In this document: positions 1 to 13,702 of the stretch, in pieces | Position numbering within the stretch: the first letter of the stretch is position 1 | How the letters are laid out: every line of letters begins with the position of its first letter | IMG/VR virus record: IMGVR_UViG_3300042882_000671 | Coordinates: 1-28,387 of that record | Length of the DNA stretch: 28,387 nucleotides | Reading direction: 5' to 3' (one strand) | Origin: a virus | The notes under the pieces: generated by a model | The model's input: only the letters and a program-made list of their open reading frames with translations | The model's database searches: none | What the model was told of the DNA's origin: nothing | Translations under genes and position numbers: made by a program

Positions 1-427
1 ATTCGGTTTGGGATTCGGTTTCGGTTTCGGATTCAGGCGGGAAGTCGCGGCGAGTTGCGGCGAGTTGCGGCAAGTCGCGGCGAGTTGGCAGCCATTCGGG
101 GTCTTGGTCAGCCGGCGGCGGGAATTTAAGACGGCTGTTCCGCAGTCGTTGGCCGTAGTTAATCACTGAAAGGCAATGCTTTCCCTCGGCATCGTAACGC
201 AGGATCAAGCCGCGCCGCTCAAGCTCATCGAGCCATTTGGTGATCTGCTTGGGCTCAATGTCCTGTTCCAGCGGGAAGCAGGCCGAGGCGACCAGCCGGG
301 GATCGGCATGGAAGCGTCCGTAGTCATCAGCCTTAGTCAAAAGCCGGATAAACAGCCGCTCGACCTCCGCGCCGATGCCGTCAAAGCACAGGCTGTCGGT
401 GTAATCGCGTAGGATTCTATTGGGCAT
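1..427 (-). CDS. Phage replication (replisome-organiser-like) protein, 3' end cut by window edge
   Basis: The reading frame starts at ATG 427-425, overlapping the end of the preceding gene by 11 bp, and stays open to the left edge (142 codons seen). The N-terminal ~110 residues look like the winged-helix domain of phage replication initiators and DnaD-like organisers, with the characteristic stretch AEVERLFIRLLTKADDYGRF followed by HADPRL and a helix-rich segment ending LERRGLILRY. After about residue 110 the protein becomes a low-complexity linker (PTRRDLPQLAATRRDFPP, then ETETES) encoded by 10-bp tandem repeats. Such proteins usually load the replicative helicase at an origin lying inside their own gene. 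It is the last visible gene of the early leftward operon, next to the recombination genes. The family assignment rests on recognised motifs only; the C-terminal domain is outside the window. Confidence 0.6.
   Translation of the reverse strand, partial: MPNRILRDYTDSLCFDGIGAEVERLFIRLLTKADDYGRFHADPRLVASACFPLEQDIEPKQITKWLDELERRGLILRYDAEGKHCLSVINYGQRLRNSRLKFPPPADQDPEWLPTRRDLPQLAATRRDFPPESETETESQTE
41..90. repeat. Five 10-bp tandem repeats (iteron-like) inside the replication gene
   Basis: Five consecutive 10-mers in perfect phase follow the consensus CRAGTYGCGG (gaagtcgcgg, cgagttgcgg twice, caagtcgcgg, then a degenerate cgagttggca). Immediately left, positions 1-36 hold a second short-period run of TTCGGT-like units. 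Because 10 is not a multiple of 3, the repeat is not simply an amino-acid repeat, so selection at DNA level is plausible. By analogy with lambda, where the origin lies inside gene O, this is a candidate origin; that role is inferred. Confidence 0.5.
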
Positions 428-626
428 ACGCCATACCTTTCTGGTTCCAATCCGCCACGATCTGATCCCGCTTGCGCCGCGCTTCCTCGATGTCCTTTGT
501 CTTTAGGTTGGCCGCCATACGCGGGTGCTTCACCACGGGGTCAAAAGGAGCCCACCGCAGCCAATAGGTGCCGTTGTTGTTCCAGATCAGCCGATCAGGG
601 TGCGGTTGCCAGCGGTTGCGCTTCAT
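417..626 (-). CDS. Small 69-residue protein resembling an integrase arm-binding segment
   Basis: The start ATG at 626-624 overlaps the stop of the upstream DUF551 gene in a 4-bp ATGA junction, which fixes the start; the longer open frame upstream is the antisense or shifted shadow of neighbouring genes. The protein has a short strand-rich part (NNGTYWLRWAPFD) followed by a helix with the pattern LKTKDIEEARRKRDQIVADW. This resembles the N-terminal arm-DNA-binding part of tyrosine recombinases, where L-x-T-x-D-x-x-E-A-R/A precedes a helix. No catalytic domain follows. It could be a stand-alone DNA-binding accessory protein, or the resemblance could be superficial. It lies between a DUF551 gene and the replication gene in the early operon. 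Confidence 0.6.
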   Translation of the reverse strand: MKRNRWQPHPDRLIWNNNGTYWLRWAPFDPVVKHPRMAANLKTKDIEEARRKRDQIVADWNQKGMAYAQ

Positions 627-814
627 TCCGGCACCTCGGGCAATTCCATCCAATGGGTGATCACGCTGTCGATAGGCTCGGACGTGCCGGCCTCGACCCA
701 GGTGCCGTCTTCGTAGATGGCGACAAAGTGCGCCTCGATGTCCGTGGCCAGGACGCAACGCATATTGCCAGGCAGTTCCTTGTCGGCGGGTGTCCAGTTG
801 CTCGGCGCGCTCAT
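623..814 (-). CDS. DUF551 family phage protein
   Basis: A 63-residue protein of the DUF551 type: an N-terminal WTPADKELPGNMRCVLAT-like segment, then DGTWVEAG, and the typical ending THWMELPEVPE (family pattern W-x-P-x-x-x-x-L-P ... G-x-W ... V-T-H-W-M-P-L-P). These small proteins are common in phage early regions; their biochemical role is unknown. Start and stop are both coupled by 4-bp overlaps to the neighbouring genes (811-814 and 623-626), so it is part of a continuous translationally coupled operon. Confidence 0.75.
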   Translation of the reverse strand: MSAPSNWTPADKELPGNMRCVLATDIEAHFVAIYEDGTWVEAGTSEPIDSVITHWMELPEVPE

Positions 815-1053
815 AGCGAATACTCCGCGACCCGTTTGCCGCCCCGTGTCTCAACGGTGCGTTCTTGAATCCCCCACCCATCCCGCCGCAGTTCGTGAAT
901 GCGAGCGGCCAAGCGGAAGCAACCAAAAGCGTCCAACGCTTCCAGCGCCGTGATGCGGTTCCCTGCGCGAAGGTGCGCGAGGATGCGGCCCGCTTGGGTA
1001 GGGCGGCGGTGCGTTTCGGGCGCACCGAACGAAAGTTCGGGTTGCCAGGTCAT
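811..1053 (-). CDS. Small helix-turn-helix protein (HTH_39-like)
   Basis: An 80-residue protein. The start at ATG 1053-1051 is chosen because it makes a 4-bp ATGA overlap with the upstream exonuclease gene and begins directly before the conserved part; a longer open frame adds 23 implausible residues. The core TQAGRILAHLRAGNRITALE followed by ALDAFGCFRLAARIHELRRDGW matches the widespread phage HTH family in which a Q-x-x-R-I-L-x-x-L-x-x-G helix precedes a recognition helix containing FGCFRLAARIHELR. It is probably a DNA-binding accessory of recombination or replication. The exact partner is unknown. Confidence 0.65.
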   Translation of the reverse strand: MTWQPELSFGAPETHRRPTQAGRILAHLRAGNRITALEALDAFGCFRLAARIHELRRDGWGIQERTVETRGGKRVAEYSL

Positions 1054-1895
1054 GCCGCCCCCTTCCCATAAACCCAACTCGGCAAGTTGAGGCACTGCAC
1101 TTCGGGCGCATACCCCGGCCAAACACCGTCATCCTCGCACTGAGCGATGAGTTCCAGCGCGTCATTCATCAGCCCCACGCCCAGATCCAGCGCGTCAGGG
1201 TGAATCTCATACACGGCCACTGCGTAAGGCGCACTCGTCTCCACGGCCACCCAGTAGAACCGTGCCGGCGGCAACCCATTGCACCCCGCCAGATGGCAAT
1301 AATAGGCTGCGCTGACGTGGTAGTTAAGCGATGCCGCTTGGCGCGAGAACGTGTTGTAGTCGGCCCCAGCGGAGGTGGTCTTCACGTCCACGATGACGGA
1401 CTCCATATCGTCAACCACTTTGAGCGCATCCACTCGGCCCTTGATCCACAAGCCGCTGCGATGCTCGGCAAACATCGCCACCTCGCTTTGGGTTTCGGCC
1501 AGCAACTCCCGCGCTGCTTTGTTTGCGGCGATTGAGTCGCGGATTCCCCGCACGGCCCGCGCCTCGTCCTGGTCGAGAACGGGCATGGAGCCAATGGATT
1601 CTTTCCACTCCTTGCCGAGCTTGGTGCGGAAGTCGATGCCCTCGGGTTTCTCGACAAAGGCCGTGTCGAGCTTCTGCGGCTCTAGGACGGCCACATGGGC
1701 CATCGTGCCAAGCATCATTGCCTTGCTTGGCTCGCGCCGAGTCTCGCCTGCCATGTGTGCCGCATAGTGTGCGGGAGTTTTGGGCGGGAGGATGTGCTTG
1801 GCGTCACTGCCGGCAATGGCTTGCGCGCTGCGGTAGTCGCCTTCTGGAATATCGTAGAACAGGCCAGCGGTTCCGTAGTTAAGTGGGGTGCTCAT
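1050..1895 (-). CDS. RecE-like 5'-3' exonuclease (PD-(D/E)XK, DUF3799 type)
   Basis: The 281-residue protein has the ordered motifs of RecE-type exonucleases: GTMAHVAVLEP with His67 near the N-terminus, Glu138 in SEVAMF, then KGRVDALKV with Asp156, and VDVKTT with Asp170 and Lys172, followed by the helix SRQAASLNYHVSAAYY. It would degrade the 5' strand of double-stranded ends, leaving 3' overhangs for the annealing protein encoded just upstream (gene 1902-2822, 6 nt between them, with AAAGGT before the ATG). Such exonuclease/annealase pairs drive phage recombination. The length fits the family's nuclease domain without the long N-terminal extension of Rac RecE. Function is inferred from motifs and pairing. 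Confidence 0.85.
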   Translation of the reverse strand: MSTPLNYGTAGLFYDIPEGDYRSAQAIAGSDAKHILPPKTPAHYAAHMAGETRREPSKAMMLGTMAHVAVLEPQKLDTAFVEKPEGIDFRTKLGKEWKESIGSMPVLDQDEARAVRGIRDSIAANKAARELLAETQSEVAMFAEHRSGLWIKGRVDALKVVDDMESVIVDVKTTSAGADYNTFSRQAASLNYHVSAAYYCHLAGCNGLPPARFYWVAVETSAPYAVAVYEIHPDALDLGVGLMNDALELIAQCEDDGVWPGYAPEVQCLNLPSWVYGKGAA

Positions 1896-1901
1896 ACCTT
1901 T

Positions 1902-2822
1902 TTAGAAAGGAATTTCTTCCGACTCGGCCAACGCTTCGGCGGTTTCGGTTTTGTCAGGCACGTCACCTGCGCGCAGATCCACAATGTCTATACCGCGCTC
2001 GCCCTCCTTGAGTTCCACGTTGAGCGCATCGCCTTGCTGGGCCTCGTCTATGATAGCGCCAAAGTTTTCGTCAAACGTGTTGAGCCAGACATCGCTTCCG
2101 TTGCGGCTGACCAGCGCGCCCCAGCGCGTCCAATCGCGGCCCTTTGCACTTGTGCCGGTCTTGCGGCTGGCCTTTAGAAAAGTCACCGTCTCGTAGTCTG
2201 CGGCTTGGGGCGGCTGCGCCACTGGCTGCTTCTTGCGGATCGGTGCTTTAGGTTCTACCCGCTCGGCCACCACGTCGATGATGTCTTCATCAGTTGCCCT
2301 GGGTGCAGGCGTTGCTGCCTTTTTGTAGGTGTGTGGCGTGTGCGTGATGACTCGCGGACCATCGTTGAAGCCCTCGGCTGGCACTTCCTCGGCTGGTGTT
2401 GTCTCAAGCCCCGCGTCCATGTAGGTCACGATGAAAGCAAACGCGCTGCGGCAGGCGCGGCTGATGGCCCTTGTCTGCGCCATCGCCCGCTTTGCAAACT
2501 CATCGCGCTTGGCCCAGGTGCGCTCGTCATCGCCCACAAAGCCCTCGGCCTCGCAGATGACAACTCCCGTGTCCATTTTGCGGACTTGGCCGATGGCGCG
2601 AAAGCCCGTCTCGATGCGTTCAACGTCCTTGGCCGAGGCCACGCATCCGTAGGCATTGGCGATGCTCTGCCAGCCTTCGACGCGGACGTATTTGCGCCCC
2701 TGTATGTTTTGCGCCGTCCTGGTGACGATGTCCTTGCAGATCGCCGCGATTTCCGTTGCTTGACGCTGGTGCGCCACTTGGTGTGATGTGCCGTTCGACA
2801 CTACTAACTGGTTCGTATCCAT
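1902..2822 (-). CDS. Probable single-strand annealing protein with OB-fold and SSB-like C-terminal tip
   Basis: Three parts are visible in 306 residues. Residues ~15-140 form an alpha/beta domain with GRKYVRVEGWQSIANAYG, CEAEGFVGDDERTW and MAQTRAISRACRSAFAFIV, ending TTPAEEVP, a pattern found in phage proteins linked to recombination. Residues ~140-205 are a Pro/Ala/Lys linker. Residues ~205-290 (YETVTFLKASRKTGTSAKGR ... DVWLNTFDENFG ... LNVELKEG) look like an OB-fold. The last residues are ESEEIPF, closely resembling the acidic D/E-D/E-I-P-F tip of bacterial SSB that docks onto RecO, RecQ and other repair proteins. Its position directly before a RecE-like exonuclease supports an annealase role. 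It could instead be a dedicated phage ssDNA-binding protein. No Shine-Dalgarno sequence is evident before ATG 2822. Confidence 0.65.
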   Translation of the reverse strand: MDTNQLVVSNGTSHQVAHQRQATEIAAICKDIVTRTAQNIQGRKYVRVEGWQSIANAYGCVASAKDVERIETGFRAIGQVRKMDTGVVICEAEGFVGDDERTWAKRDEFAKRAMAQTRAISRACRSAFAFIVTYMDAGLETTPAEEVPAEGFNDGPRVITHTPHTYKKAATPAPRATDEDIIDVVAERVEPKAPIRKKQPVAQPPQAADYETVTFLKASRKTGTSAKGRDWTRWGALVSRNGSDVWLNTFDENFGAIIDEAQQGDALNVELKEGERGIDIVDLRAGDVPDKTETAEALAESEEIPF

Positions 2823-2839
2823 TGGTGTGTGTTCTATTG

Positions 2840-2867
2840 CGGGTCAGGTGTTAGCGCACCTGGCCCG
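2840..2867. promoter_or_regulatory. Hairpin upstream of the annealase gene
   Basis: An 11-bp inverted repeat (arms 2840-2850 and 2857-2867, 6-nt loop) lies between the nuclease stop and the annealase start, ending 17 bp before the ATG. Read as minus-strand RNA it has one mismatch; read as plus-strand RNA that position is a G-U pair. No T-run follows on the minus strand, so it is not a standard terminator. It may affect translation or mRNA stability of the annealase. Confidence 0.45.
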
Positions 2868-2879
2868 TCTTGGTTTGTG

Positions 2880-3272
2880 TTAAGCAGTCGAATCAGCCAG
2901 TTCCTTTAACCGTTTCTCCAACTGCAAAAGTGTTGTCTTGAGGCGCGATATTTCGGCCAAGGCCGCAACAAGGTGCGAGAGGCGCACAAGACCCAACCAT
3001 TCGCCGCCGTTCCAGCGCATTGCCACGCAAGGTTCTTTCTCAATGCCGGCGTCTGCCAGCGCCTGCGCCCAGGCCGCTTTGACTGCAGGCTTCTCCGTGC
3101 GCTTGACCTCAAGGTGCAGAGGTAAGTCAGTCAGCACATCAGGCGAGGCCACGCCAACGGCAAAGCGTCCTGCGTGCTGGCAACCACGTTGAGCGGCAAA
3201 GACGCCGCCGCTCGCGTCCTTGATGAGATCGGCCACCTCGCGCTCGCCGCGTGCGCCCTTGTTGCGGCTCAT
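2880..3272 (-). CDS. PD-(D/E)XK nuclease, Holliday-junction-resolvase-like, with C-terminal coiled coil
   Basis: A 130-residue protein starting MSRNKGARGEREVADLIKDA, the typical N-terminus of phage resolvase-like nucleases. The catalytic signature is Glu12 in the first helix, Asp45 in SPDVLTDLP, and Glu55-x-Lys57 in LHLEVKR. Residues ~105-128 (ISRLKTTLLQLEKRLKEL) form a short coiled coil, an addition not usual in the family. The start at ATG 3272 is preferred over ATG 3281 because GAGG lies 9 nt upstream of the former; the latter would place GAGG directly against the start codon. It probably cleaves branched recombination intermediates. It precedes the annealase and exonuclease genes in the same operon. 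Confidence 0.7.
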   Translation of the reverse strand: MSRNKGARGEREVADLIKDASGGVFAAQRGCQHAGRFAVGVASPDVLTDLPLHLEVKRTEKPAVKAAWAQALADAGIEKEPCVAMRWNGGEWLGLVRLSHLVAALAEISRLKTTLLQLEKRLKELADSTA

Positions 3273-3273
3273 G

Positions 3274-3567
3274 CTACTCATCCTCGCGGCCTCCAAATTC
3301 ATACTCGGGGTCGTATTTCTCCCGCACCGAGTCCCTGACTTCTTCCAGCGTTGCGGGCCGTGCGCCGGCCATGAGTTTGGCGCGCAGAATTTCGCGCTCG
3401 GCCTCAACCATTGCCAGGCTGGCCCGCAACTCTTCGTTCTCACACTCAAGCCGAACGATGCTTCGTGCCATTGCGTCCTCTACCGCAGAGTAGCTGGCCG
3501 ACCGGGCTTGTGAGGACTCCCCAAAGTCCACCCGACCGACCAGCATTTCCCTTACGAGAGTGCTCAA
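3274..3567 (-). CDS. Coiled-coil protein of unknown function (TTG start)
   Basis: The 97-residue protein starts at TTG 3567-3565. That start is supported by a strong Shine-Dalgarno (GAGGAGG) 7 nt upstream and by a TTGA overlap with the stop of the gene before it. Residues ~28-68 form a heptad-rich helix (VEDAMARSIVRLECENEELR onwards to EREILRAKL), followed by an acidic tail with EEVRDSVREKYDPEYEFGG. I do not recognise a family. It is paired with another coiled-coil gene immediately upstream (3564-3743), which suggests the two may form a hetero-oligomer; this is an inference. Confidence 0.65.
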   Translation of the reverse strand: MSTLVREMLVGRVDFGESSQARSASYSAVEDAMARSIVRLECENEELRASLAMVEAEREILRAKLMAGARPATLEEVRDSVREKYDPEYEFGGREDE

Positions 3568-3743
3568 AGTGTTTCCTCCTCGGTGTTGCCGCCGCGATAA
3601 CGGCGAGCGATGGCCAGCGCCTCATCCAAGGCCAACGTGAGCCGACTGTTCTGCTCGCGGAGGGCTTGGTTTTGTTCTTCAACAATGGCCACCTTGCGCT
3701 TCATGTCTGCCAAGTAGTCCTCCATTTCCATCTCGTGACTCAT
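3564..3743 (-). CDS. Small coiled-coil protein, 59 residues
   Basis: It starts at ATG 3743-3741, overlapping the stop of the upstream gene (3740) by 4 bp, and ends at TGA 3566-3564 overlapping the next start. The sequence is almost one continuous charged helix (MKRKVAIVEEQNQALREQNS, then RLTLALDEALAIARRYRGG) with heptad spacing of V, L and A. It was below a common 60-residue cutoff and would be missed by many gene finders. The function is unknown; coupling to the next coiled-coil gene suggests joint assembly. Confidence 0.65.
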   Translation of the reverse strand: MSHEMEMEDYLADMKRKVAIVEEQNQALREQNSRLTLALDEALAIARRYRGGNTEEETL

Positions 3744-4162
3744 GGCCGGCCTCCTGCTTGGTGTTTAACCGTGCTCTGAAAGATTTCTGCCGCAGGCAGA
3801 TTGCAGCCGATCAAGTCGCAGAATATTTGCGCTTCGCCGCTCAAGAACCACGCCCGCAACTGCCGGTGCTCATGCGGCCCCGTGCAGCAAGCGATTTGCG
3901 CTCGGGATTTGTGGTTAAAGCATTCCAACCTTCCTCGCTGCATTTTGAACCGCCGCCGCATTTCATATGGCCACGGCCCGCAGTTGCCCTGGGGATCAAT
4001 GAGCCCATACCGGCAATAGGTGGCCAGATCGTCCACGGCCTGTTCCAAAATTGCCCACGCCAACAACTCCCAGCCGCTGCGCTCGGGCGACTTATGCCCG
4101 GTAGCCATGATCGGCTTGCCGTTTATGGCCGACCCTGTAAGTCCCTCAAGGTTGTAAATCAT
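3740..4162 (-). CDS. Hypothetical early protein, Trp/Cys-rich, 140 residues
   Basis: The start at ATG 4162 is chosen because it overlaps the stop of the tiny upstream gene in an ATGA junction; the longer open frame upstream is made of out-of-frame neighbours. The N-terminus includes SAINGKPIMATGHKSPE. The middle contains WELLAWAILEQAVDDLATYC and five cysteines spread over the protein. The C-terminal part (HRQLRAWFLSGEAQIFCDLI then GCNLPAAEIFQ) is similar in pattern to short phage proteins with A-x-x-W-F-x-S ... F-C-x-L-x-G, where this helix pair follows DNA- or RNA-binding elements. I cannot name a family with confidence. No zinc motif of standard spacing is visible. Confidence 0.6.
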   Translation of the reverse strand: MIYNLEGLTGSAINGKPIMATGHKSPERSGWELLAWAILEQAVDDLATYCRYGLIDPQGNCGPWPYEMRRRFKMQRGRLECFNHKSRAQIACCTGPHEHRQLRAWFLSGEAQIFCDLIGCNLPAAEIFQSTVKHQAGGRP

Positions 4163-4236
4163 TTGAGCAGTTGAACGAGAGTGTCGAATGTCCACGCGCA
4201 CAGCAGAGCGAGAGCGCAGAGAATGAGCAGGGCCAT
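4159..4236 (-). CDS. 25-residue single-pass membrane peptide
   Basis: The frame from ATG 4236 to TGA 4159 encodes MALLILCALALLCAWTFDTL plus VQLLK, essentially one transmembrane helix. It ends in an ATGA overlap with the next gene, which supports translation as part of the operon. There is no clear Shine-Dalgarno site. Small membrane peptides in phage early regions can act in superinfection exclusion or on host membrane enzymes. A role as a leader that couples translation of the following gene is equally possible. Confidence 0.45.
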   Translation of the reverse strand: MALLILCALALLCAWTFDTLVQLLK

Positions 4237-4262
4237 CAGTGACTGATCTGGAGGATGTGGGG

Positions 4263-4427
4263 TCACAGGCTGATGCGGTTGCGAAGTTGGCTAAGAACGG
4301 CGACCACGCGATCTCGGAGCGAAGGTGTCCCGCCTTGGGCCAGCCGCTCGCAGACAGCCAGCAAGGCGTTTGCCGGCAGACAGGGCCGCTCGCCGCGACG
4401 GTCAATGACGGAAGGACGGATGCTCAT
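4263..4427 (-). CDS. Hypothetical 54-residue basic protein
   Basis: It starts at ATG 4427-4425, overlapping the stop of the upstream membrane-protein gene by 4 bp. It encodes a basic, helix-rich chain (LPANALLAVCERLAQGG, then LRDRVVAVLSQLRNRISL). It ends 26 nt before the tiny membrane peptide gene. No family is recognised. The coupled start is the main evidence that it is translated. Confidence 0.5.
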   Translation of the reverse strand: MSIRPSVIDRRGERPCLPANALLAVCERLAQGGTPSLRDRVVAVLSQLRNRISL

Positions 4428-4615
4428 TTGCGGTTCCTCCGAGTGCGTGGTGCGCGGCGGTTTTCCCGCTCGAGCAATGCGCCAACCCTAAGGTTTGCGA
4501 GGTTGCGCTCAGTGGTGATGCCGCGCTTGCGGCCATACTCGTGGCCTGACAGGAATGCCAAGCCGACGAAGCTGGCGGTTAAACCGGTTGCAATAATGAT
4601 TGAGATAGGGTCCAT
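4424..4615 (-). CDS. Small membrane protein with basic C-terminal tail
   Basis: A 63-residue protein. Residues 1-24 (MDPISIIIATGLTASFVGLA then FLSG) form a transmembrane helix; the rest is a strongly basic cytoplasmic tail (YGRKRG ... RRAPRTRRNRK). ATG 4615 is chosen over an upstream start that would read through the neighbouring gene; it lies 4 nt behind the stop of the excisionase-like gene. The function is unknown. The basic tail could bind DNA or RNA at the membrane, but nothing shows this. Confidence 0.55.
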   Translation of the reverse strand: MDPISIIIATGLTASFVGLAFLSGHEYGRKRGITTERNLANLRVGALLERENRRAPRTRRNRK

Positions 4616-4619
4616 GTGT

Positions 4620-4823
4620 TTATTTTCTGTTGCTTGAGGAAGCGCGTTTGCCTTGCCACCACGCTTCAAAAGACGGCTTGACGATCTCCCACCCGCCGCG
4701 CTTGCCCCGGGGCATACAGGCGGCAAATTCGCCGCGATGGGCGAAGCGGCGGATCATAAAGACGCTGTATCCCGTCATGGCTGCGGCCTGCTCGGGACGA
4801 ATGATGAAGTCGCCGGTGCTCAT
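4620..4823 (-). CDS. Excisionase/AlpA-like HTH protein
   Basis: A 67-residue protein with the compact winged-helix layout of excisionases and MerR/AlpA-like proteins: FIIRPEQAAAMTGYSVFMIR (helix-turn-helix), then RFAHRGEF and a wing PRGKRGGWEIVKPSFEAWW that ends in the usual Trp-containing helix. The start at ATG 4823 makes an ATGA overlap with the upstream RHH gene. As the second gene of the early leftward operon, near the integrase and attP, it is the best candidate for the recombination directionality factor; it may also regulate transcription. The evidence is fold-like pattern and location. Confidence 0.6.
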   Translation of the reverse strand: MSTGDFIIRPEQAAAMTGYSVFMIRRFAHRGEFAACMPRGKRGGWEIVKPSFEAWWQGKRASSSNRK

Positions 4824-5053
4824 ACTCGTTGCTTTGCCATGAGGCACTCGATGCCCTCGCGCACGACGCGCGAAACATTGTCATGCCCTTGTTGCTTTGC
4901 CCGCTTGCACGCCCAAACGTAGAGCGATGCGGGGATGGAAACGGATTTCTTGATGGTAGGTGTGGTATTTGTGTTCACGCCTAAGATCATGGCCCGCAGG
5001 CCAGAGACATTTGCGGGCATACCCCCTGTTTTTTTAATCGGTGCTTGGCGCAT
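4820..5053 (-). CDS. Ribbon-helix-helix (RHH) regulator, first gene of the early operon
   Basis: The C-terminal ~45 residues match a ribbon-helix-helix DNA-binding domain: strand IKKSVSIP, first helix ASLYVWACKRAKQQ, a G-containing turn, and second helix VSRVVREGIECLMA. Residues 1-33 are a flexible basic arm. The start is drawn at ATG 5053, only 8 nt below a possible -10 box, which would give an almost leaderless mRNA; ATG 5020 or 4990 are alternatives. It is divergent from another RHH gene (5191-5409) across a region with two palindromic operators, suggesting that it is one side of the lysogeny switch. Which of the two is repressor-like and which Cro-like cannot be told. Confidence 0.7.
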   Translation of the reverse strand: MRQAPIKKTGGMPANVSGLRAMILGVNTNTTPTIKKSVSIPASLYVWACKRAKQQGHDNVSRVVREGIECLMAKQRV

Positions 5054-5190
5054 TGGTAGGTGAATACCTTACTGGTGCTACCAGTAGCAAGCATTTATTT
5101 TGCAAAAGTGAAAAAAAGTTTTGGACCCAAAAACCACTTGCAAAATGGTGGCACCAGTAGGAATTTGCCACCGCTCACCTATGTCGCCTT
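5054..5190. promoter_or_regulatory. Divergent promoter/operator region between two RHH genes
   Basis: Two palindromic sites sit 73 bp apart, about seven helical turns: ACTGGT-N3-ACCAGT at 5071-5085 (perfect) and AATGGT-N3-ACCAGT at 5144-5158. Each lies exactly in the 17-bp spacer of a possible promoter. Leftward: TTGCTA 5090-5085, then GTATTC 5067-5062. Rightward: TTGCAA 5138-5143, then GAATTT 5161-5166. The -35 parts are reasonable and the -10 parts weak. A further inverted pair, TAGGTGA at 5057-5063 and TCACCTA at 5175-5181, brackets the region. Bound regulators would block RNA polymerase at both promoters and could bridge them by looping. The promoter calls are tentative; the palindromes are directly visible. 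Confidence 0.65.
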
Positions 5191-5409
5191 ATGAAAGCAA
5201 AACCCAAAAAAGAGAGGTCGGTTAAACTGTCCGTTTCACTCAAGCCGCATCACATTGCCTTTATTGAGGCTAATATGCCGATTTTCGGCACCACTAGCGG
5301 TTGCATCACCCGTGGATTGGACGAGCTAATCGCCCGCGTATCCGAGGAACCAGAGGTCTACACGATCAAGCCCGTAATTCCAAAAGGGTCTGATCGCCCC
5401 GCTAAATAG
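5191..5409 (+). CDS. Ribbon-helix-helix regulator, divergent partner
   Basis: A 72-residue protein. A basic N-terminal arm (KAKPKKERS) is followed by the RHH strand VKLSVSL, helix KPHHIAFIEANMP, the turn IFGTTSG and helix CITRGLDELIARV, then a short tail. It resembles the RHH core of the divergent gene 4820-5053 (shared S-V-S-I/L strand, G turn, R-x-x-x-E/D-x-I/L second helix), so the pair may have arisen by duplication. No Shine-Dalgarno sequence is seen. Its stop overlaps the convergent integrase stop by 8 bp. Being the only plus-strand gene beside the integrase, it would be expressed alone, as a lysogenic repressor often is; this is an inference. Confidence 0.7.
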   Translation: MKAKPKKERSVKLSVSLKPHHIAFIEANMPIFGTTSGCITRGLDELIARVSEEPEVYTIKPVIPKGSDRPAK

Positions 5410-6424
5410 CCCACCAAGCCTGCCAATCGGCCATGGCCGCCGGCACAGAGTAAACCCGCTGCACCATAGCTGACGAAGTGTGGCCCATCTGGTAGGCAGT
5501 GAGCCCCGCATTCTTGGCCCTGCCAAGGTGGTAGGTGGCGAAGGAGTGCCGCAGGCAGTTATCCGGCCACTCTGGCAGCACCGGAGAACAAGCCTGGCGG
5601 CGATGGGTGTGCAACGTCTCGGCAGCCACAGGAATGATCTTGCCCTTCTGCTCGGCAAGCCACTCTTTGCGCCGAGTCAGCGGCTCGGTGAAATCGACAA
5701 TGCGCTGGTCAAAGCCGCCCGAGTCCTTCATCGCCCCTGGCGGGACGTGGATCTGGCCCGATTTAGTATTTACGTGGCTCCAATCCATCCGCGCCACTTC
5801 CTCGGTGCGGAGGCCGGCGAACCCGCCGAGCAGGAGCAAGGCCCGCACATGGTCGGGCAACTCGAGGTCGAGCAGGGCTTTCATTTGCCCTGGCGTTAGA
5901 ATCGCCCGCGCTGGCTTAGTCTTTGGCGCAGGAACCCCACCCATCGGATCGTCAGCAATCAATCTGTTGCTCTTGAGGTAGGCAAAAAACATTCTGGCAT
6001 AGCGATAATACATCGCCTGAGTGTTGCCGTTGATGCTGCGGGCCTTGATCCACTTACGGATTGCGGCCGGCTCAATGTCATTGGCAAAGCCGCGAAAGGC
6101 GGCAGGGAAAGCGCGCTGAAAAATCTCCAGCTTCTGCCGGTGGCTTTTGCTTTGCGGGTCGGCTTCGTTAACAAACATCCGCACGGCAGCCGCCACGGTC
6201 AGTCCGCTTTTGTCTGCCGAAAGCGAGTCCGCGCCCTTGGCATTAACTTGAGCGGTCAGCTTGGCCCCCTCCACCCAGGCCAATTCTTCCGTTGGAAAAA
6301 ACTTTCTGATACGCTTTCCATGCGCGTGGAAATCACACACCCAAGGGCTATCGGCTCGGGTAGCGTCCTTCCGCACTCGGAATCGCACGGGGTTATTGTT
6401 GCGAGAAAATGCCATAAGTGCCAC
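5402..6424 (-). CDS. int: Tyrosine recombinase (phage integrase)
   Basis: Catalyses attP x attB recombination into the tRNA-Ser gene. Numbered from GTG 6424 (340 residues), the catalytic set is Arg206 in GFAGLRTEEVARMDW, Lys233 in GAMKDSGG, Arg292 in NCLRHSFATYHL, His315 in MGHTSSAM and the nucleophile Tyr325 in RVYSVP. The usual first His of the H-x-x-R box is Asn. Residues ~10-60 form the arm-binding part (RFRVRKDA ... RIRKFFPTEELAW) and ~75-160 the core-binding SAM-like domain. The start GTG 6424 is chosen because GGAG lies 7 nt upstream. ATG 6415 is the alternative. A longer frame from GTG 6481 would begin inside the terminator hairpin and is unlikely. The attP core is about 105 bp upstream. 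Confidence 0.9.
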   Translation of the reverse strand: MALMAFSRNNNPVRFRVRKDATRADSPWVCDFHAHGKRIRKFFPTEELAWVEGAKLTAQVNAKGADSLSADKSGLTVAAAVRMFVNEADPQSKSHRQKLEIFQRAFPAAFRGFANDIEPAAIRKWIKARSINGNTQAMYYRYARMFFAYLKSNRLIADDPMGGVPAPKTKPARAILTPGQMKALLDLELPDHVRALLLLGGFAGLRTEEVARMDWSHVNTKSGQIHVPPGAMKDSGGFDQRIVDFTEPLTRRKEWLAEQKGKIIPVAAETLHTHRRQACSPVLPEWPDNCLRHSFATYHLGRAKNAGLTAYQMGHTSSAMVQRVYSVPAAMADWQAWWAI

Positions 6425-6457
6425 AACCCTTCTCCATGCTTGCAACTTTGGCAAATT

Positions 6458-6517
6458 AAAAGCCGCGACAAGCCAAGACACTTGAGCGGCGTAAGTGTCT
6501 TAGCGTGCGCGGCTTTT
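6458..6517 (-). terminator. Long double-arm hairpin terminator between attP and integrase
   Basis: Outer arms 6458-6467 and 6508-6517 are a perfect 10-bp inverted repeat (AAAAGCCGCG/CGCGGCTTTT); inner arms 6475-6483 and 6493-6501 are a perfect 9-bp repeat (AAGACACTT/AAGTGTCTT) with a 9-nt loop. Read on the minus strand the stem ends in CGCGGC followed by TTTTAATTT, a Rho-independent terminator; plus-strand reading also gives TTTT. It lies 11 bp behind the 3' end of the tRNA half, so after integration it would end transcription of the rebuilt tRNA gene and shield int. Confidence 0.75.
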
Positions 6518-6528
6518 ACAGAGAAAAA

Positions 6529-6586
6529 TGGCGGAAGGGGTGGGATTCGAACCCACGGTTGGTTTAACCCAACGCTCGATTTCGAG
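6529..6586 (-). other. attP: attP core: 3' half of tRNA-Ser(CGA), from anticodon loop to CCA
   Basis: On the minus strand the segment reads anticodon loop CTCGAAA (anticodon CGA), the 3' anticodon-stem strand TCGAG, a serine-type long variable arm (GTTGG-GTTAAA-CCAAC), the T arm GTGGG-TTCGAAT-CCCAC, the acceptor strand CCCTTCC, discriminator G and CCA. The 5' half is absent: beyond position 6587 the sequence does not pair with the anticodon stem and no GGAAGGG acceptor strand is found. This is the classical integrase target within tRNA genes, where the phage copy restores the gene after integration. Phage genes lie on both sides, so this is attP rather than attL or attR. Confidence 0.85.
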
Positions 6587-6673
6587 GTGAATGCCGCATA
6601 CTGTGGCTGAACGCTTTACAAAAGCTGTGCCAACGATTGCCACTAATTGCATAAAATGGCTATGACAGCCTCT

Positions 6674-6693
6674 TTGACACTCGCCGCCGCATC
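6674..6693 (+). promoter_or_regulatory. TTGACA box, 14 nt before GTG 6694
   Basis: TTGACA at 6674-6679 followed by a GC-rich 14-nt spacer and the GTG start of the metallophosphoesterase. It is the only plus-strand member found and matches the minus-strand late-gene boxes in hexamer and spacing, which also supports the GTG start. Confidence 0.6.
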
Positions 6694-7434
6694 GTGGCGT
6701 CGATCACCCGCAAATGGAAGAAATGGGTCGGCGTTTCTTGTAGTCACGGCTCCGACATAGACCCCAAGGCCCGCGAAGCGTTCCTGACCTTCTTGGACCG
6801 CTACAAGCCCGAGCAGCGCATTCACCTTGGCGATGCAATCGACCTCGCCTGTCTGCGCGCTGGAGCTCGCCGTGATCCTGATGACCCCGACCGCGCCGAG
6901 TCTTTGATGGACGATCTGCTCGCCGGGCTTTCGTTCCTGCACGAGATGCGGCCCACCATGTATTTCCACGGCAACCACGAGGCCCGCGCCGTTTCCCTTG
7001 CCCACAGCGCCAACCAGGTCGTGGCCTATGCCGCCGGCGCGGTTATGGCAAAGATCCACGACAACCTAGCCAAATACAAAACCGAGATCATCCCCTATCG
7101 CGGCATGGCCCGCGACTCGGTGCGCTACCTTGGTGGCACAGCCTTTTTACACGGATCTTTGTTCAACGTCAGCGCCACACGCGACACAGCGGAGACGGTC
7201 GGCGCGCATTGTTGCTTCGGTCACACACATCGCGTGGCAATGGAGTCAGCTAGGACGCACGCTGACGCTATTGGCTACAACATCGGCTGCCTGGCTCGCT
7301 TGGACATGGAGTATGCCGCAGGCCGCCGGCAGACCTTGGCTTGGCGACATGGCTTCGCCTACGGCGAATACTGCGACAGCGCCTGCACGGTGAACATGGT
7401 CACGCTTTCTCCTCATTACCGCCTGCCGCTATGA
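6694..7434 (+). CDS. Calcineurin-like metallophosphoesterase
   Basis: A 246-residue protein of the metallo-dependent phosphatase fold. Metal-binding motifs in order are: residues 13-19 GVSCSHG (the D-x-H position reads C-x-H), G46-D47 in HLGDAID, G93-N94-H95-E96 in FHGNHEAR, His153 in FLHGS, and G176-H-T-H179. The replacement of the first Asp by Cys16 is notable, although similar phage proteins carry a C-S-H-G motif, so it may be a subfamily trait. The start is GTG 6694: an in-frame stop lies at 6652, no ATG intervenes, and a TTGACA box sits 14 nt upstream. It may hydrolyse phosphoester or cyclic-nucleotide substrates; a role in lysogenic conversion or counter-defence is speculation. First gene of a four-gene operon that ends at a terminator. 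Confidence 0.8.
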   Translation: MASITRKWKKWVGVSCSHGSDIDPKAREAFLTFLDRYKPEQRIHLGDAIDLACLRAGARRDPDDPDRAESLMDDLLAGLSFLHEMRPTMYFHGNHEARAVSLAHSANQVVAYAAGAVMAKIHDNLAKYKTEIIPYRGMARDSVRYLGGTAFLHGSLFNVSATRDTAETVGAHCCFGHTHRVAMESARTHADAIGYNIGCLARLDMEYAAGRRQTLAWRHGFAYGEYCDSACTVNMVTLSPHYRLPL

Positions 7435-7700
7435 GTCACAAAAAGTCAGCAAGGATTGTGACGCCCGACCCAGACTTGGCAAGGTGGTGCGAAGCCCTAG
7501 CCGCTGGCTCTGTGGTGGCCGAGGTTGTCCCGCCCGGCTGGTTCACTTGCAAGGAACTATCAAAGGCCCGAGGGCGTAGCGAATGCAGCACCTCAACCTC
7601 CTTGGCGCGGATGGTCGAAGCGGGCCTAGCCGAGAAGCGCAGCTTCACGATCAAGTTGGCCGCGCAGACCCGACCCGTCCCGCACTACCGCCTCAAATAG
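7431..7700 (+). CDS. Small winged-helix-like protein
   Basis: An 89-residue protein starting at ATG 7431, overlapping the phosphoesterase stop by 4 bp (ATGA). The middle (PPGWFTCKELSKARGRSECS then TSTSLARMVEAGLAEKRSF) has the arrangement of a short winged helix: an L-x-x-x-x-G-R-S turn, then a recognition helix and a basic wing ending PVPHYRLK. It is probably a DNA-binding or adaptor protein; I do not recognise a named family. It is translationally coupled with the phosphoesterase. Confidence 0.6.
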   Translation: MSHKKSARIVTPDPDLARWCEALAAGSVVAEVVPPGWFTCKELSKARGRSECSTSTSLARMVEAGLAEKRSFTIKLAAQTRPVPHYRLK

Positions 7701-7701
7701 T

Positions 7702-8046
7702 ATGGCAAAGCCCGCCAGCACCCCGCTTAAGCGCAGGAAAGGGCCGCCCTCGATGCGCTTTAAGTTTGACGGCGAGTGGTGGACGGTCAAGGTGCAGCGC
7801 CCGCCCAGCAAAGAGCTTTGCGAAGGGATGGCGCATTACCGCCGGCGCACCGTTTACCTCCATCCCAAGGCCGTTGCTGGCAACTTGCTCGGCATCTGCG
7901 CCCACGAACTCGCGCACGTCACCATGCCGTGCGTGGCCGAGGAGAACGTGCGCGATCACGAACGTCTGGTGTCTGTCGTGGTTCGGTGGGCGGCAAGTCT
8001 CAATGATGGCAAGGTGACCATTGGGCAGCACCGGGCAGACAGATGA
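7702..8046 (+). CDS. HExxH putative zinc metallopeptidase-like phage protein
   Basis: A 114-residue protein with ICAHELAHVTMPCVAEENVR: His68-Glu69-x-x-His72 is the zinc-binding HExxH motif and Glu80 or Glu81 the likely third ligand. The upstream part forms strands (FDGEWWTVKVQRPP ... RRTVYLHP) like those of short phage HExxH proteins annotated as SprT- or minigluzincin-like. No zinc-ribbon is present. The substrate is unknown. It starts 1 nt after the stop of the wHTH gene and its own stop overlaps the next start by 4 bp. Confidence 0.65.
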   Translation: MAKPASTPLKRRKGPPSMRFKFDGEWWTVKVQRPPSKELCEGMAHYRRRTVYLHPKAVAGNLLGICAHELAHVTMPCVAEENVRDHERLVSVVVRWAASLNDGKVTIGQHRADR

Positions 8047-11807: not shown

Positions 11808-13702
11808 GGGACGTAGATGTGGACACCGGAGAGGTAGATGCTGTCTGACGAAGTGTCGGTGGCGTCACCTGCGCGTCGTTGCAGCTCGACCCATTTTAGC
11901 TGCATTGGGTTCGTTGCGCTGATGTTGGTGACAGTTGCAAAATTTACAGTCTGCTCCATAACGTAATAACGAAAATTTGGGTTTCCTCCATAATTTGCCG
12001 TAAATGTGCTTTGAATTTGAGTTCCACTCACAATTCCGTTTGTTTGAGTGTTGCTGACTGGTTCCACCACAAATGGAAACGTCCAGACAGCGATGTCTCC
12101 GTTGGTCCCGCTGTTGGTTAAAGTGCGATCCGTCCAGTAAGACACCACTTTAACCGATCCGCTGACCCGATAATCAACAGGCAGCATAAATTTTGTATTG
12201 GAGTTACTAACAGTCACCAAAGTTGCGCTTACAGGGTGTCCCTGCGCGTTGCCTGATATTAGCGGATTTGCGCTTACAACTTGCGCTCCCGATAAAATCT
12301 CATTCGCGCCATACCACCGAGAAAAACTATACCGCGCATCCGACAAATCCCGAGTCATCAAACTCGACCCACTGCTCGCCGTCTGCGAAGGCGCAGTGTT
12401 TGCGGTGCCGCCCAGCGCGACATCCGTCAGATCCCCGCGAGCCGCAACGGAGACGTTGGTGGGTCCGGTGGCGACGAGGGTGGCGGATTCATTAGGCGAA
12501 AGGGTAAGGTTTTGTGCGCCGTCTATCGTGATGCCGCCCACGTTGCTGATGGTCACGGCATTCGTCGCTTGGTTTACGAGGTAGTAGAACGCACCGAGGA
12601 CTCCATTGGTCACGCTGCTGATCGCGTTGTTGTTCGTGAGCCGGATTACGTTGGCGTTGCTTGGCAGGGTTAGCACACCGTTGGTCGCGGCGGCGGTTTG
12701 GGTGGCGTCGAGAGCCCATGTGGAGGGCGTGGTGGTGGTGAAGGAGCCGACTGAGAGGGAGCCTGCGACTGACACGTTGGTGGAGAATGTGGCGGTGTTG
12801 GAGACTGCGAGGGTTCCGCTGGCCGTGACGTTGGAGAAGGTGACGTTGTTGGTTGCGCCGAGTTCCAAATTGGTGCGCGCCGTGCTTGGCGAAAACGCGA
12901 CGTTCGCAAAACCGCTGTAACCATAAAAAGCAGGCTGCGCTACTGTTAAGTTGGTTCCGTAAAGCTGAAAAAGTCCGCCCGAGTTACGCCCCACAAAGCC
13001 GCCGGCGCTGCCAGAGCCAAAAATGCCTAGTTGAATGTTGCTAAACGTGGGCTCGTTTGTTGCGCCGAGTCCCAAGTTGTTGCGGGTGGTCGAGGCTCCA
13101 TTCGTGTTGCCACCACTGAAAGCATAAGAACCAACGTGTAAAATAAGCCCATTAGTTTTTAGTTCCAACTCAGTGCTTCCTGCGCGTTTAAACGCAAGGT
13201 CTATGCCAGAGGTTATAGCGGTTAAATTCATGCCTCCTATGGCTAGACTGCCATTTCCGCTAAGTGACAAATTGCTGAAGGTAACACTGTCGCTCCCCCC
13301 GAGCCCCAAGTTTGTGCGACTGGTCGCCGCTGCCGTTGCCCCGCCTAAAAAGGGAAAGGAAATAGGGTTAAGCAGTTTGGTCTCGTTGGTCGAAAGGGTA
13401 AGCCCCACAAGCCCACCAGAGGTGTTGATCTCCGCGTTCGTGCCAAAGATGGCGACTTGAGCCGCAGAAGTATTTGTGGCCGTGAAGACCGCATTGCCCA
13501 CCGTCGTTCCGCCGAGGTTGGTGCGCGTGGTCGCCCGGGCGTTGGTGGCGAAACCAACCGAGTTGGTGAAGGTCACGTTGGTGGCCGCCACGATGTTGCC
13601 GTTCGTTGTGTTATAGCCCAGCGACTTGATCGTTTGCCCTGATGCGGGAGCGGCAGCCAGGGCGGCGGCGGCGAGGAGAAGTATTGAGAGGCGAAGTTTC
13701 AT
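11804..13702 (-). CDS. Repeat-containing tail-fibre-like protein with Sec signal peptide
   Basis: A 632-residue protein. Residues 1-22 form a typical Sec signal peptide (MKLRLSILLLAAAALAAAP, then ASGQ with A-x-G/S cleavage), which is odd for a virion protein. Residues ~50-310 contain four spaced copies of the fibre repeat T-R-T/N-N-L-G/E-L-G-x-T/S-N/D-x-x-T-F-S-N followed by a short strand region, as in trimeric phage fibres. Residues ~430-632 (SRWYGANEILSGAQVVSANP ... VWTFPFVVEPV ... YLSGVHIYVP) make a distinct C-terminal beta domain, probably the receptor-binding head. It is Thr/Ser/Asn-rich and looks like fibre proteins common in Verrucomicrobiota genomes. It may instead be an exported surface protein made during infection or lysogeny. 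Confidence 0.7.
   Translation of the reverse strand: MKLRLSILLLAAAALAAAPASGQTIKSLGYNTTNGNIVAATNVTFTNSVGFATNARATTRTNLGGTTVGNAVFTATNTSAAQVAIFGTNAEINTSGGLVGLTLSTNETKLLNPISFPFLGGATAAATSRTNLGLGGSDSVTFSNLSLSGNGSLAIGGMNLTAITSGIDLAFKRAGSTELELKTNGLILHVGSYAFSGGNTNGASTTRNNLGLGATNEPTFSNIQLGIFGSGSAGGFVGRNSGGLFQLYGTNLTVAQPAFYGYSGFANVAFSPSTARTNLELGATNNVTFSNVTASGTLAVSNTATFSTNVSVAGSLSVGSFTTTTPSTWALDATQTAAATNGVLTLPSNANVIRLTNNNAISSVTNGVLGAFYYLVNQATNAVTISNVGGITIDGAQNLTLSPNESATLVATGPTNVSVAARGDLTDVALGGTANTAPSQTASSGSSLMTRDLSDARYSFSRWYGANEILSGAQVVSANPLISGNAQGHPVSATLVTVSNSNTKFMLPVDYRVSGSVKVVSYWTDRTLTNSGTNGDIAVWTFPFVVEPVSNTQTNGIVSGTQIQSTFTANYGGNPNFRYYVMEQTVNFATVTNISATNPMQLKWVELQRRAGDATDTSSDSIYLSGVHIYVP

Follow-up and report, generated by a model that had tools for sequence, protein, structure and literature searches.

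We place the primary lysis-lysogeny (immunity) region of this phage, with a probability of about 0.6, at positions 4824-5400 of the window, the whole 28.4-kb stretch of DNA analysed here (IMG/VR fragment IMGVR_UViG_3300042882_000671), where two ribbon-helix-helix (RHH) proteins would stand in for the usual HTH CI/Cro pair. On balance, and with slightly less confidence, we also favour a broader reading: that in a lineage of tailed phages of Verrucomicrobiota an RHH/RHH pair replaced HTH CI/Cro as the primary switch and branched out into at least four heteroimmune cassettes, each with its own operator code, that are exchanged between the conserved genes int and xis. In the literature searched we found no tailed bacterial phage with a primary RHH/RHH switch that is exchanged as a cassette, and one may exist elsewhere. 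If this is true, the lysis-lysogeny switch of a tailed bacterial phage can rest on the RHH fold alone, and the lineage supplies naturally matched pairs of regulator and operator for following the evolution of RHH DNA specificity and of phage immunity; a search for CI-like HTH genes, used as a test for temperate or immune phages, would miss it. The genes and sites of the region are:

417..4847, minus strand: presumed early operon downstream of RHH1, from gene order and annotation
4620..4847, minus strand: xis-like HTH_17 gene (start codon ATG at 4823) that comes second in the operon and does not change with the cassette type
4820..5053, minus strand: RHH1, ORF of 77 aa that opens the early operon and overlaps xis, in the presumed Cro position
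5054..5190, no strand: divergent promoter/operator region, from conservation
5191..5409, plus strand: RHH2, ORF of 72 aa transcribed away from RHH1, in the presumed CI position; it and the integrase gene overlap at their 3' ends
5402..6481, minus strand: tyrosine integrase
6529..6585, minus strand: attP core, a 57-bp match to the 3' half of tRNA-Ser(CGA)

The integrase, used as a query, retrieved 26 related viral loci, and its relatives in bacterial genomes (18/18) all belonged to Verrucomicrobiota, which points to this phylum as the host group. The matching tRNA-Ser(CGA) is intact in a Verrucomicrobia MAG, where it adjoins a related integrase. With an integrase and an attP site matching a host tRNA gene, the phage is therefore very likely temperate. 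We found no copy of the cassette integrated with host DNA on both sides, and the xis profile, run against 387 and 26 Verrucomicrobiota genomes to locate more copies, turned up distant matches only. In some of the relatives (L010, L011, L012, L014, L015 and L058) the integrase-attP segment (window 5401-6642) is flipped with respect to its flanks, with type A and type C cassettes (defined below) alike.

The sequence-only reading of this region had proposed two small divergent genes separated by 137 bp, and both ORFs were borne out. RHH1 is kept in 5 other loci at 70-74% identity and RHH2 in 4 other loci at 67-78%, with RHH1 beside it every time; the relatives of RHH2 were found with an alignment as query, the lone sequence having retrieved none. 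Both genes are under coding constraint, as differences at third codon positions are 2-6 times more frequent than at second positions. Downstream of RHH1, and all on the minus strand, the presumed early operon encodes the xis protein, a membrane protein, a nuclease/resolvase, an ERF-like annealing protein, a PDDEXK exonuclease and proteins of no known function. A small operon at 6694-8046, divergent from it, encodes a metallophosphoesterase, a small winged-HTH protein and a SprT-like protein, and its phosphoesterase is conserved across cassette types. One relative carries a second xis-like gene (L026:4796-4996), divergent and directly upstream of the integrase, and a similar one is found in L018.

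The assignment of RHH1 to the RHH (MetJ/Arc/CopG) fold is well supported, and that of RHH2 moderately so. The AF2 model of RHH1 (pLDDT 61) has a ribbon segment followed by two helices, with the strand not formed in the monomer; its top VIA-align matches are mostly RHH proteins (CopG, Arc, NikR and PutA; best Z 3.9), and hhalign relates it (80%, E 1.5e-5) to a relative, encoded in the same genomic slot, that Pfam recognises as RHH_3 above the cut-off, whereas RHH1 itself has no direct Pfam match. The predicted helices of RHH2 (residues 19-32 and 35-52; pLDDT 64) follow the RHH topology, and its listed VIA-align matches are all RHH proteins (ParD and NikR), with a best Z of only 3.5; a profile search with RHH2 gave no match. 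Both structures are low-confidence monomer models, and for both proteins Pfam, PHROGs and PDB sequence searches returned no usable match and Foldseek alone no significant one. The two proteins had been read as having similar RHH cores; both models do show RHH topology, but profile comparison of RHH1 with RHH2 detected no homology. Antitoxins and partition proteins often have an RHH fold, and antitoxins account for many of the structural matches, so the pair might be a remnant of such a system. We consider this highly implausible: neither RHH gene has a recognisable toxin gene beside it, no ParA-type family is among the Pfam families listed, PADLOC gave no match, and every cassette retains two regulators.

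Comparison with the related phages revealed that the two genes and their intergenic region are exchanged as a unit. The unit and the types found in its place are:

4824..5400, no strand: exchangeable cassette, a gap in the similarity to 12/12 compared non-type-A relatives
Type A (window, L005, L011, L022, L058 and, partially, L067): RHH2 divergent from RHH1
Type B (L003, L008, L025, L019, L020 and L056): two divergent RHH proteins homologous to each other (hhalign 99.8%)
Type C (L006, L010, L012, L014, L015, L017 and L026, with C_d in L055): tandem pair (hhalign 49%, E 2.6e-5)
Type D (L066): another divergent pair

In BLASTN comparisons of window positions 3500-8000, similarity to all 12 non-A phages ends at 4822-4823 (4806 in L066) and returns at 5398-5411, while it is continuous, or nearly so, with the type A phages. 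These breakpoints coincide with the start of xis (4823) and the end of the integrase gene (5398-5411), and the block replaced is exactly the two-gene cassette. The type C phage L026, for example, shares with the window the phosphoesterase (99%) and xis (94%) but not the cassette. The slot that runs from the end of the integrase gene to the start of xis holds different small-gene sets in different phages, including at least three RHH sets besides type A. Similarity of the type B and D proteins to Pfam RHH_1 is below the cut-off; that of the type C proteins is absent, and their assignment to the RHH proteins therefore rests on sequence pattern and on the homology between the two members. Each set comes with its own motif: 10-bp CTTGnnAAGn repeats in type B, a AGCCGTCnGACGGCT palindrome in type C and CCCATTGTG repeats in type D. 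Such co-variation of predicted regulators and putative operators across cassettes is what an immunity module predicts, and its exchange between conserved flanks resembles that of lambdoid immunity modules.

The position of the pair between int and xis, and the overlap of RHH1 with xis, would also fit a switch that sets only the direction of integration by regulating these two genes. This seems quite unlikely to us, as the type B cassette also adjoins a different integrase (28-32% identity), in phages that lack a homologue of this xis, and still lies next to the early operon; the pair is therefore not just an accessory of integration. In L111-L116 a type B cassette lies by an unrelated integrase in the opposite orientation. 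In two more distant loci, from Verrucomicrobiota MAGs, the interval from integrase to xis likewise holds two RHH-like genes, a divergent pair in L099 and a tandem pair in L079, with one protein of each over a Pfam cut-off (RHH_3 or RHH_1). Since type C and one of these MAG relatives have their two RHH genes in tandem before xis, divergence is not essential, and the CI/Cro analogy is not general, type C having no divergent gene. Extra small genes, B_a and B_b (L008:6111-6441 and equivalents), go with types C and D and with some type B cassettes, and B_a is homologous to RHH1 (hhalign 77%).

The divergent promoter/operator region of type A contains two putative operators:

5068..5086 (core 5071-5085), plus strand: putative operator O1, beside RHH1, perfect palindrome ACTGGTGCTACCAGT, from conservation and matrix scan
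5143..5161 (core 5144-5158), minus strand: putative operator O2, beside RHH2, palindrome AATGGTGGCACCAGT with one mismatch, from conservation and matrix scan

These ACTGGT-N3-ACCAGT-like palindromes, the second with one mismatch, lie 73 bp apart from start to start, just as had been noted from the sequence, and a search of the window for further sites with 0-1 mismatch, suggested at the same time, found none. Dinucleotide shuffling of the 137 bp produced two mutually similar palindromes of this kind in 0.18% of cases, and a single perfect 6-N3-6 palindrome in 5.6%. Five type A phages keep both operators together with a CTTG (-35-like) element at the inner side of each, and in these phages the stronger half-site faces outward (CCTACTGGT...ACCAGTAGG) and the distance between the operators is 73, 73, 73, 73 and 71 bp. 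The 54-56 bp between the operator/CTTG elements, by comparison, have a mean identity of only 54%. A matrix scan gave exactly two strong sites in each of three type A sequences (the window, G001 and G013) and no strong type A site in six non-A genomes. A site at 12054 of the window (score 16.4), inside a large structural-region ORF, was taken as chance.

Each palindrome had further been placed in the 17-bp spacer of a possible promoter. The arrangement of CTTG element and operator is indeed conserved in the five phages, with candidate spacers of 17-18, but the candidate promoters are weak by consensus, and a consensus sigma-70 scan gave no promoter at or above threshold in 5054..5190; we therefore infer the promoter positions from the conserved arrangement. 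The putative -10 element of RHH1 ends 7-8 nt before the ATG in all five type A phages, and the position of this element suggests that the RHH1 mRNA is possibly leaderless.

Searching for a CI-like repressor gave no candidate. In a six-frame search of 17 related records neither HTH_3 (0 over cut-off) nor Peptidase_S24 (0) was found, with incomplete sensitivity, since the HTH_3 control search caught only 1 of 2 Akkermansia phages and a repressor of some unrecognised family could escape it. The repressors annotated in phages of Akkermansia, which also belongs to Verrucomicrobiota, are of the HTH/S24 type. Three weak HTH_3 matches in relatives were inspected and set aside as CI candidates, all being ORFs of ~190-200 aa directly upstream of the terminase large subunit. 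Two of the relatives are complete: G001 (38.6 kb, circular, with a 127-bp terminal repeat, type A) and G015 (127-bp terminal repeat, type C). Their called genes include no repressor among the 25 Pfam families listed for each genome, with one and two further families lying outside these lists, and their non-structural genes none in PHROGs or NCBIfam; no antirepressor family is among those listed for them either. The DNA-binding entries listed for the two genomes are a xis-type HTH_17, a small winged HTH and an AbiEi-type match, a kind of match also given by the xis protein of the window. The absence of a CI-type repressor, first seen in the window, thus extends to the relatives, including the two complete ones, as far as such proteins are recognised.

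Could the RHH pair be an accessory, locally autoregulated circuit that tunes xis and the early genes while an unrecognised primary repressor holds lysogeny? P22 offers a precedent, as Mnt and Arc, both RHH proteins, act there on the ant region and are not themselves the prophage repressor (PMC2629481); moreover, the operators lie at the RHH locus only, and several conserved genes have no known function. We regard such an arrangement as unlikely, since no CI, S24 or antirepressor family is among those listed for the two complete relatives, the whole early operon is apparently driven by the RHH1 promoter, and the sharply exchanged block is the cassette itself. The conserved winged-HTH protein of the opposite operon (7434-7697) has a weak MarR_2 match, and the G001 ORF at the same position was matched in 10/10 other compared genomes. 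That this protein is the repressor, with the RHH proteins regulating excision only, appears very unlikely: it is common to different cassette types, unlike a specificity-determining repressor, its operon mates are a phosphoesterase and a SprT-like gene, and the type A operator is absent from that operon. The winged-HTH protein and the xis protein could nevertheless act as regulators.

We thus return to the RHH pair as the primary switch. RHH1 would head the early operon (RHH1-xis-recombination genes) in the position of Cro, and the divergent RHH2 would take that of CI, with one GGT-N3-ACC-type operator between the -35-like and -10-like elements of each putative promoter. The most likely mechanism would be promoter occlusion, in which RHH dimers, bound singly or in pairs, block the polymerase. 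In the lysogen, RHH2 would keep the early promoter silent; during lytic growth, RHH1 would limit its own expression and that of RHH2. Operator binding and this division of roles between RHH1 and RHH2 are what we infer from the arrangement. The sequence-only reading had envisaged a looping-capable RHH/RHH switch. Its switch gains from the conserved operators, the boundary-exact cassette exchange, the lack of a recognised CI and the attP site; looping, with the near-constant spacing as its sole backing, no direct support and one relative at 71 bp, is not supported and is kept as a minor possibility.

Among known systems, lambda has divergent regulators with operators in both promoters and Cro as the first early gene, in a module that is swapped between related phages. 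The window resembles the lambdoid CI/Cro switch in its divergent regulators, its putative operators in both promoters, its module exchange and a first early gene in the position of Cro. It differs in having an RHH and not an HTH fold, one operator per promoter and no S24 autocleavage domain, and the relatives searched showed no HTH CI of the lambdoid kind, which often carries an S24 domain. In P22, mnt and arc are divergent and the Arc operator lies between the -35 and -10 elements of Pant. The P22 immI region has two RHH repressors with adjacent operators, an anatomy that type A would fit, with RHH2 a moderately supported RHH protein and the type A operators putative. The P22 pair is immunity-linked and controls the ant region (PMC2629481), and as a regulator of an antirepressor it is secondary to an HTH prophage repressor, whereas the pair in the window heads a xis/recombination operon: the gene after RHH1 is xis and not ant, and neither antirepressor nor CI was found in the families listed. 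YosL of SPbeta, a predicted Arc-type RHH protein, takes part in lysis-lysogeny management, but is tied to lytic-cycle activation in SPbeta c2, where the master repressor is a separate protein, MrpR (PMC10516654). F55 of the archaeal virus SSV1 is a small RHH protein reported to maintain lysogeny in a CI-like manner by binding sites at the early promoters and at its own (PMC5569661). F55 acts as a single RHH protein on archaeal promoters with tandem-repeat operators, whereas here a pair of RHH proteins would serve a tailed bacterial phage from exchangeable cassettes.
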